DNA of 64,000 nucleotides, from the NCBI GenBank assembly GCA_947175875.1, contig CAMWON010000005.1:1-64000 (forward strand). The letters run 5' to 3'. The notes beneath the pieces are model-generated. The model saw nothing but the letters and a program-made list of their open reading frames with translations. It was not told where the DNA came from and made no database searches. Of this stretch, positions 4,650-63,840 are shown piece after piece. A program made the translations under genes and the position numbers. This DNA is from an uncultured Alphaproteobacteria bacterium (GTDB taxonomy: Bacteria > Pseudomonadota > Alphaproteobacteria > Rs-D84). Position 1 is the first letter of the stretch, and each line of letters starts with the position of its first letter.

Positions 4650-4735
4650 ACTGGATTGCTTCACTTCGTTCGCAATGACAATAAGTTTAGAACGACTGTC
4701 ATTGCGAGGGAGTAAAACGACCGTGGCAATCCAGT
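4650..4735. repeat. REP/MITE-like palindromic element
   Basis: ctggattgcttcacttcgttcgcaatgaca ... tgtcattgcgagggagtaaaacgaccgtggcaatccag imperfect inverted repeat. Confidence 0.75.
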
Positions 4736-4741
4736 AAATAT

Positions 4742-4769
4742 TTGCAAATCTTAACTTTTATGCTATAAT
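4742..4769 (+). promoter_or_regulatory. sigma70-like promoter for leader copy 1
   Basis: TTGCAA-N16-TATAAT immediately upstream of the structured leader. Confidence 0.6.
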
Positions 4770-4775
4770 TCACAG

Positions 4776-4950
4776 TGCATCGGGTGATTACCGATGTGAG
4801 GCTTCAAAACCTCTTACGAGCTTTAACTCCACAACCGGTTGGAGGGTTGCGAATATATTGAATAAGCAACGCTATTCTCGTAGTAGTTTTGAACCTCCAA
4901 CCGCCCTTCATCACGGCGGTGTTTTTTATTTGCAAAAAACAACGGAGGAT
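4776..4950 (+). promoter_or_regulatory. structured leader RNA, subclass I, copy 1
   Basis: P0 CATCGG/CCGATG; hairpin GAGG-cTTCAAAA-CCTC; loop pairs TTTTGAA (4887-4893); TACGAG(4815-4820):CTCGTA(4877-4882); GGTTGGAGG(4837-4845):CCTCCAACC(4894-4902); terminator-like ACCGCC/GGCGGT plus T6; SD GGAGG 4944-4948. Confidence 0.85.
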
Positions 4951-4953
4951 AAA

Positions 4954-5232
4954 ATGCAAATATATGTTGATGCAAAATGTTTTGGCAATGCAATGCGGCA
5001 TGGACGCAGCAATGCCGGAATAAAAAAACGCGATGTTGCGAAGATTTTTGGAATGACAGCGCATGATTATAATCGTATCGAAGCGGGACGCAAAATATGG
5101 CCGGGGAACTTGATGCTGCGGCTGATGACATTGGCGTTTTTGCAACTGCGCACGCGGCGTGTTAACGGTTCGTCTGGGATGAAAACATTACAGACCGACC
5201 CGGATGCGGCGATATTTGTTGATGCCGATTAA
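4954..5232 (+). CDS. small HTH (XRE-like) DNA-binding protein, 92 aa
   Basis: ATG preceded by GGAGG; KRDVAKIFGMTAHDYNRIEAGRKIWPG helix-turn-helix pattern; the track ORF starting at 4858 runs through the leader. Confidence 0.75.
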   Translation: MQIYVDAKCFGNAMRHGRSNAGIKKRDVAKIFGMTAHDYNRIEAGRKIWPGNLMLRLMTLAFLQLRTRRVNGSSGMKTLQTDPDAAIFVDAD

Positions 5233-16180: not shown

Positions 16181-16400
16181 TCTGAGCGGGGGCTTTCCCT
16201 GCTCGGGGTGTCGAAACCCGGAATACTGCGTTCAAACAAGAACGATAAAAAATTACTCCAACGGATTTATCCGGTTGGAGGGCTGTGAATAATGCGCATT
16301 TGTTGCGCACCAATAAGCACACTATACAGTATTATAGTTTCGAACCTCCAACCGCCTGAATTTTTTCAGCGGTTTTTCAATTCGCGAAAAAAAGGAGGAT
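16181..16400 (+). promoter_or_regulatory. structured leader RNA, subclass I, copy 2
   Basis: P0 GAGC../..GCTC; hairpin CGGG-gtgTCGAAA-CCCG; loop pairs TTTCGA (16338-16343); AATACTG(16222-16228):CAGTATT(16327-16333); CTCCAAC(16256-16262), GGTTGGAGG(16273-16281), CCTCCAACC(16345-16353); AACCGC/GCGGTTTTT; SD GGAGG 16394-16398. Confidence 0.87.
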
Positions 16401-21261: not shown

Positions 21262-21470
21262 AAACCTCCTTTTTTCAAAAGAATGAAAAAACCGCTGAAA
21301 AATTCAGGCGGTTGGAGGCTTGAAACTATCTTATAAATAGCGGGCTTATTCAAAATATTCGCCACCCTCCAACCAGTTTTAGATTGGAGATACACATGCA
21401 TGCTATCGCGATGCATCGCGTTATAAGAGAGGTTTCAAGTCCTCATTCGGGGAATGCCCCCGAACAATAA
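21262..21470 (-). promoter_or_regulatory. structured leader RNA, subclass I, copy 3
   Basis: Minus strand: P0 TTCGGGG/CCCCGAA; hairpin GAGG-acTTGAAA-CCTC; loop pairs TTTCAA(G) (21319-21325); TCTTATAA:TTATAAGA; CTCCAATC, GGTTGGAGG (21366-21374), CCTCCAACC (21310-21318); AACCGC/GCGGTT; SD. Confidence 0.87.
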
Positions 21471-41793: not shown

Positions 41794-41870
41794 CGGAGTG
41801 TAGCTCAGTCTGGTAGAGCGCTGCGTTCGGGTCGCAGAGGTCGTAGGTTCGAATCCTGTCACTCCGACCA
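41794..41870 (+). tRNA. tRNA-Pro (anticodon CGG)
   Basis: Cloverleaf by eye: CGGAGTG/CACTCCG acceptor, CTGCG-TTCGGGT-CGCAG anticodon arm, GTTCGAATC T-arm, CCA encoded. Confidence 0.93.
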
Positions 41871-42022: not shown

Positions 42023-42041
42023 AATCCTGTCACTCCGACCA
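42023..42041 (+). repeat. duplicate of tRNA-Pro 3' end
   Basis: aatcctgtcactccgacca identical to the tRNA 3' 19 nt. Confidence 0.85.
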
Positions 42042-42135
42042 TATATTTAACCGCCCATTGTGGCGGTTGTTTTTTTCTTGATATTGTGTACGAGATTTAT
42101 TCATTGTCTTTATAAATTTATTTTTTTATAATACC

Positions 42136-42395
42136 CAAGAATTCACAGGGATCTGAATTCAGGGACGTAAGAAATCCCATACAACATCGATGCAGTAATG
42201 CATTGAATCCGCACAATAGCGGCGCAAATGCGCCCGTTATTATATACCCCGCACTTAAACTGTCGGGGAGCCGTCGGCTATACCACAGGGCATGCCCAAA
42301 GGCCGACGGGGTCATTATGTTGTATGATTTTCTTAACTCCCCGACTGCCAATTCCCTTGGCGGTCATTTGTTTTTACCAAACAAAAAGGAGTTGG
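42136..42395 (+). promoter_or_regulatory. structured leader RNA, subclass II, copy 1
   Basis: GGGA-cgtAAGAAA-TCCC hairpin; loop pairs TTTCTT (42329-42334); CATACAACAT(42178-42187):ATGTTGTATG(42317-42326); GTCGGGGAG(42262-42270):CTCCCCGAC(42337-42345); GACTGCC/GGCGGTC; SD GGAG; TTGTCT-N17-TATAAT promoter upstream. Confidence 0.88.
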
Positions 42396-63572: not shown

Positions 63573-63840
63573 TTTCAAATCCCTGTTTTTGTGTTAAACA
63601 AAACGCCGCCTTGGAATTGGCGGCCGGGGATTTCAGAAAATCATAACATAAAATGACCCCGTGACTTTTGGGTAATCCCTGTTATATGGTCACGGATCCC
63701 CGACCGGTTAGAATCGGGTGATATAAAACACACGGCGCATCATTGCGCCGACGTATTTTGTCGGATTCAGTGCGTACCACCGCACCGTTATGTTATGGGA
63801 TTTCTGAGGTCCCTGAGCCAACATCCCTGTTGATTCAGTG
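63573..63840 (-). promoter_or_regulatory. structured leader RNA, subclass II, copy 2
   Basis: Minus strand: CAAC-agggat-GTTG; GGGA-cctCAGAAA-TCCC; loop pairs TTTCTG; CATAACATAA:TTATGTTATG; GGTCGGGGAT:ATCCCCGGCC; GCCGCC/GGCGGC; GGGATTT SD region; TTTACT-N17-TATACT upstream. Confidence 0.88.

Follow-up and report, generated by a model that had tools for sequence, protein, structure and literature searches.

The segment around 4.8 kb of the window (the whole 64,000-nucleotide stretch of DNA that was analysed) raises the question of how a short leader that recurs in front of several genes could control them. The initial annotation proposed four strands at 4815-4948 of the forward strand: strand 1 would pair with the SD look-alike strand 2 while strand 3 masks the SD (OFF), or strand 2 would pair with strand 3 and leave the SD free (ON). 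All four strands are present, at 4827-4948, and co-vary, far above chance. We assign a probability of about 0.7 to the reading that every copy is a self-contained 5' leader whose type is that of the phage-immunity RNAs C4 and sRNA-Xcc1, domesticated and amplified as a chromosomal switch that is OFF by default. We favour it because of the strands themselves, their covariation, the overlap of one of them with a terminator, a shift in the predicted folding ensemble, and homology to sRNA-Xcc1.

The segment under study is the mid-part of a 5' leader that extends, on the forward strand, from about position 4777 to the start codon at 4954. A -10 box TATAAT is located at 4764-4769, and transcription would start just 3' of it, at about 4776. 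The leader opens with a hairpin shared by most copies (H0, 4777-4796), followed by hairpin P0 (GAGG[8]CCTC, 4797-4813; weak covariation only, in 26 copies), which holds strand a1 (CTTCAAAAC, 4802-4810) in its loop, and by strand b1 (TACGAG, 4815-4820). Both a1 and b1 are complementary to downstream strands, a' and b', as judged from covariation and from the comparison of copies described below. Strand 1 (CTCCACAACC, 4827-4836) is the partner of strand 2 (GGTTGGAGG, 4837-4845), with a predicted pairing probability of 0.98 in this leader. Strand 2, which resembles the SD and is a putative antiterminator, also forms the 5' arm of a C4-like closing stem with two inner hairpins, both indicated by covariation: the first (P2 of C4, 4846-4870) has the loop GAATATATTGAATAA, and the second (P3 of C4, 4871-4886) carries b' (4877-4882) in its loop. 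Strand a' (GTTTTGAA, 4886-4893), identified by its pairing with a1, lies directly 5' of strand 3 (CCTCCAACC, 4894-4902), which would be at once the 3' arm of the closing stem, an anti-SD and the beginning of the intrinsic terminator T2 (ACCGCC..GGCGGT and a T-run, 4900-4927). The SD (CGGAGG, 4943-4948) precedes the controlled gene, which encodes a 92-aa helix-turn-helix (HTH, XRE-like) protein (4954-5232; Pfam HTH_31, E 1.2e-4, under the curated cut-off). Over the copies, the order of elements is H0, P0 with a1, b1, a further terminator T1 in some copies, strand 1, strand 2, P2, P3 with b', a', strand 3, T2, SD, and gene. A palindromic repeat (CTGGATTGC..GCAATGAC) was found at 4665-4735, just 5' of the leader, and likewise at loci L002, L003, L020, and L023.

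With the 180-nt leader as query, 30 matches were found in the same genome. From these 30 a covariance model of the core, strand 1 to the terminator, was made (R1), which identified 60 places at E <= 0.001 in this 953-kb (0.95-Mb) genome and also detected two diverged copies of the window that were outside the training set. These are the 42.1k copy (42233-42379, forward strand, type CGGGGAG, E 8e-4), located 5' of a gene for a 274-aa cysteine-rich protein, and the 63.6k copy (63589-63729, reverse strand, type CGGGGAT, E 1e-5), 5' of a gene for a 166-aa cysteine-rich secreted-like protein. A further copy (21276-21398, reverse strand, E 6.9e-24) precedes a 46-aa secreted-like protein, and a fifth window copy, absent from the initial annotation, precedes a 159-aa cysteine-rich secreted-like protein (16243-16387, forward strand, E 1.2e-16). 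The letter details given earlier for the copies at 21.3k (reverse strand), 42.1k (forward strand), and 63.6k (reverse strand) are correct, e.g., GGGATTT with AAATCCC at 63.6k and GGAGTT with AACTCC at 42.1k. By a crude rule, 28 of the 50 genes behind the leader encode proteins with a cysteine content of 5% or more and an N terminus that resembles a signal, and about two thirds of the Enterousia targets look secreted, mostly cysteine-rich; the remaining genes encode small HTH or other short proteins. The end of the tRNA gene at 41794-41867 recurs about 150 bases downstream, at about 42024-42042 (AATCCTGTCACTCCGACCA), just 5' of the 42.1k copy, an arrangement as at an attachment site.

Candidatus Enterousia is an uncultured genus of the order Rs-D84 with a reduced genome (PMC12306168). 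The leader unit occurs throughout this group of uncultured gut Alphaproteobacteria: within the genus, 33 of 34 genomes contain R1 copies; beyond it, so do 16 of 18 others in the order and, as a weak match, just one of six others in the class. The P2-core pattern has at least 111 occurrences in named genomes, almost all of them in Alphaproteobacteria from animal guts, Candidatus Enterousia included. In IMG/VR the same pattern yielded two contigs; as both carry the same copy before a secreted-like gene, no phage origin is shown for the Enterousia variant. Three tandem pairs with nearly equal a' and b' were identified (G000 C5:75447/75641, C3:19304/19566, and C3:14740/14996), the first member apparently lacking a gene of its own, as if it were a stand-alone sRNA partner. 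Two gene-less copies (L008 and L029) have a shared hairpin element 3' of both (GGGGC..CTTCTCATCTCCAATCAAAGAAAC..GCCCC-like), perhaps another structured RNA.

Compensatory changes strongly indicate that strand 2 pairs with strand 3, as had been proposed: among 30 copies, 96.7% of the cells of this helix are paired, and 6 of its 10 pairs have changes on both sides. Such changes were also found in 5/5 pairs of P2 and 2/5 pairs of P3, so that the three helices jointly have 94.4% of cells paired and both-side changes in 13 of 20 pairs. The covariation score of this three-helix model was 0.423, compared with 0.181 for shuffled alignments and at most 0.136 for slid partners. The helices that join the 5' part of the leader to the C4-like domain were analysed in a single subtype, represented by 26 copies that come from several genomes: a1:a' is paired in 100% of cells with both-side changes in 4 of 7 pairs, b1:b' in 90% with both-side changes in 5 of 6, giving 9 of 13 pairs together. 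The 1:2 helix is nearly invariant in this subtype, and its support is therefore the comparison between subtypes.

The duplex energy of two segments of the same copy (cis) was compared with that of segments from different copies (trans), separately for 50 copies of this genome and 98 copies of other genomes. The z values quoted below overstate independence, because the copies are related, and the agreement of the two separate sets is a stronger point than the values themselves. The cis duplexes were favoured for 2:3 (z -13.7 in the own and -13.0 in the other genomes), for 1:2 (-9.6 and -9.7), thus bearing out the earlier pairing of strand 1 with strand 2, and for 3:SD (-4.4 and -5.0), in agreement with the claim that SD complementarity is kept across copies. 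The ab segment with the upstream region gave -17.3 and -18.2; for the single helices the values were -8.9 and -12.7 (a1:a') and -11.3 and -8.3 (b1:b'). With the RBS of its own gene, a' has a partial match (-4.2 and -2.0), and b' has no specific match (-0.5 and 0.0). Coding-sequence controls were flat for both strand 3 (0.6 and -0.5) and ab (1.3 and 1.7). The SD also tracks the type of strand 3: CTCCTG occurs with CAGGAG in 13 of 17 own copies, CCCC with GGGG or GGGA in 5 of 7, and CCTCC copies carry GGAGG or GGGGG, in a statistic that treats related copies as independent although SD and strand-3 types are inherited together.

Strand 3 shares part of its length with an intrinsic terminator, so that control of transcription is expected besides that of translation. 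T2 was called in 50 of 65 own and 93 of 115 other copies, compared with 10 of 178 control windows, and its overlap with strand 3 amounts to 3-5 nt in 139 of 143 copies. T1, located between b1 and strand 1, was called in 18/65 own and 37/115 other copies versus 15/177 control windows, i.e., it is present in about 30% of copies. The T-run of T2 complements the A-tract 5' of the SD (4915-4940 of the window, and other copies), with changes of the GTTTTTC:GAAAAAC and TTTTTG:CAAAAA type; within the 3:SD loop the two may give rise to a third hairpin.

In the predicted folding ensemble, calculated at equilibrium and ignoring pseudoknots and co-transcriptional order, full leaders form 1:2 in 49 of 50 cases and 2:3 in none of the 50. 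When the leader is begun at strand 2, the 2:3 helix forms (P 0.83 in the own and 0.88 in other genomes), T2 becomes less probable (0.90 to 0.36 in own copies, 0.85 to 0.40 in the others), and the SD becomes more accessible (0.27 to 0.47 and 0.26 to 0.48, respectively; Wilcoxon p 5e-4 and 5e-10). The probability of T2 was 0.86 for the full leader, 0.72 for leaders begun at strand 1, 0.51 for those begun at strand 2, and 0.93 with strand 2 removed. The effect on T2 thus requires strand 2, and therefore strand 2 is predicted to behave like an antiterminator that strand 1 caps; the predicted antiterminator helix and the terminator hairpin overlap, as in a transcription attenuator. Masking of the SD by strand 3 in the OFF state is supported over the copies as a set, but 3:SD is predicted to be weak in several of them, including that at 4.8 kb: this leader has a 3:SD value of just 0.03 and gains no SD accessibility, while the terminator probability drops from 0.97 to 0.23. 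For this copy the model predicts control almost wholly by termination, with weak SD masking.

Taken together, the two-state logic of the initial annotation fits both the covariation and the ensemble; it is incomplete in that it lacks the a1:a' and b1:b' helices, the terminator, and the kinship with C4. The OFF state would be held mainly by the a1:a' and b1:b' helices. In this default state, a1 and b1 would pair with a' and b', strand 1 would cap strand 2, and the free strand 3 would seed the terminator; after read-through, strand 3 would mask the SD and the start region in many copies. With a1, b1, and strand 1 occupied, absent or still to pair, the C4-like domain could fold via 2:3, taking the base of the terminator together with strand 3, so that transcription would go on with a free SD. 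We infer that the leader RNA acts in the cell as such a switch. The likeliest trigger would be a trans RNA with the same a1/b1 or a'/b', which could come from a gene-less tandem copy or from a short isoform ended at an upstream terminator, as for IsrK; copies bearing T1 could yield such an isoform. RNase P cleavage at strand 2, as in P1 C4, where the cut is expected at the GG that opens this strand, would also release 2:3, and a protein or a small ligand would be less likely triggers.

An Rfam search of the window revealed no family at cut-off apart from a tRNA. A match to sRNA-Xcc1 (RF02221) covers 4837-4910, exactly from strand 2 to strand 3, and is sub-threshold (35.1 bits, E 1.1e-4); two further copies in this genome match at E 8e-5 and 4e-4, the best match in the genome being 46.7 bits, below the curated cut-off of 53 bits. 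In the opposite direction, R1, although built from Enterousia copies alone, finds five sRNA-Xcc1 loci (E 9e-9 to 3e-6), and the core is therefore homologous, with reciprocal covariance-model matches. The sRNA-Xcc1 family passes the Rfam cut-off in 39 of 398 proteobacterial genomes, and its loci have the same a1/b1 layout upstream, in a part that lies outside the Rfam model. Many of them have a second a1/b1 copy around the SD; there, a'b' fits the RBS (z -7.5) as well as the region upstream (z -8.8), whereas strand 3 has no RBS match (z -0.7), the reverse of the Enterousia pattern. The genes 3' of these loci include those for Bro-N, KilA-N, P22 antirepressor, Rha, and SymE proteins. Their layout is that of the phage P1 c4 immunity RNA, whose record marks a1, b1, c4, a2, and b2, in that order. 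Thus, sRNA-Xcc1 (loci L231-L260) resembles the core of a C4-type leader, and Rfam keeps it outside the C4 clan.

With the C4 RNAs of P1 and P7 (RF01695, c4-2 RF02944, and c4-a1b1 RF03163; clan CL00128), the Enterousia leaders share the succession of elements: the promoter is followed by a1 and b1, then by a hairpin and its T-run and by the closing stem that encloses the two inner hairpins, and lastly by RBS and gene. The position of b' in the second loop and of a' before the 3' strand is the same, upstream a1 and b1 are complementary to a' and b', and in P1 c4, too, strand 2 has a potential pairing partner upstream (TTACGCCC). The Rfam models of C4, c4-2, and c4-a1b1 gave no match at 4700-5000 at E up to 5. 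Unlike C4, where a2 and b2 surround the RBS, the Enterousia leader has strand 3 itself as the anti-SD, with b' not matching the RBS and a' only partly, and a second terminator follows strand 3; there are about 60 copies per genome, and the genes behind them code for secreted-like and small HTH proteins instead of antirepressors. From these comparisons, the anti-RBS role appears to have moved in Enterousia from a'/b' to strand 3 and part of a'. The unit is a relative of the phage C4 and sRNA-Xcc1 immunity RNAs and no isolated riboswitch-like oddity.

Two other systems are comparable. IsrK of Salmonella Gifsy-1 (PMC4825925), like the P4 CI RNA described in the same paper, combines a short RNA that stops at an early terminator with a read-through mRNA, the leader of which can fold into an inactive or an active form, and the short RNA turns the read-through mRNA on in trans. 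It differs in being a single prophage locus, T1 being present in only some 30% of Enterousia copies, and its closing stem is not known to have an anti-SD role. Group 1 C4-like sRNAs of A. baumannii, which are processed at a GGW site, have likewise been amplified on a bacterial chromosome (PMC5320573); however, they are reported as sRNAs with only proposed targets, whereas most Enterousia copies are gene leaders with a matching SD.

The C4 topology would also suit a classical antisense RNA, in which RNase P, cutting at strand 2 as reported for P1 C4 (PMC5320573), would excise the 2:3 domain to act in trans on other mRNAs via a' and b', the leader position being secondary. The existence of gene-less terminated copies, the a' and b' common to tandem copies, and the ACC or ACCA after many strand-3 ends, which RNase P substrates probably favour, are in line with it. 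We nevertheless consider it improbable, as b' has no specific match to its own RBS, in contrast to the strong a'b':RBS signal of sRNA-Xcc1 loci, and as a' and b' vary from copy to copy and fit their own a1 and b1, not a common target. Less probable is a ligand-binding riboswitch family with the P2 loop (GAATATATTGAATAAGC) as aptamer: this loop is strongly conserved in most copies, and many leaders have a platform of terminator and SD, but a plain hairpin or GAAA replaces the loop in some copies (C5:16243 and C6:21568), the homologs are phage antisense RNAs, and the targets form no metabolic pathway. Slightly less likely still is a mobile repeat without regulatory role, its helices reflecting DNA or RNA folding needs of transposition (integron attC-like or REP-like), for although there are many copies, some tandem and some gene-less, and integron cassettes carry sRNA-Xcc1 (PMC12444791), most copies sit exactly between promoter and RBS, the SD type tracks strand 3, and a1, b1, a', and b' change together as the DNA diverges. 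An integron attC site, an idea suggested by sRNA-Xcc1 in cassettes, was set aside because the copies are scattered over both strands and form no array. A short leader peptide as regulator, read by eye from strand 2 into P2, was rejected, its frame not being conserved.

For the C4/sRNA-Xcc1-type switch, a compensatory test exists for each strand, and the mechanism is therefore directly checkable. To our knowledge, this would be the largest set of leaders belonging to a single class of regulatory RNA in a genome of such small size. The sRNA-Xcc1 RNA has been described as a trans-acting sRNA; the sequence comparison suggests that it represents the core of C4-type leaders that precede antirepressor and SymE genes. 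If the proposed reading is true, a phage immunity RNA was rebuilt as a bacterial regulon, with the anti-RBS part shifted from a'/b' to the closing stem. More speculatively, and as a possibility that we hold to be rather unlikely, a gut symbiont with a reduced genome may have turned this RNA into some 60 individually addressable switches, each with its own a1/b1-a'/b' code, in which short isoforms or gene-less sister copies would turn on or off individual members of a large and varied family of secreted cysteine-rich proteins, resulting in a kind of RNA-coded expression variation.
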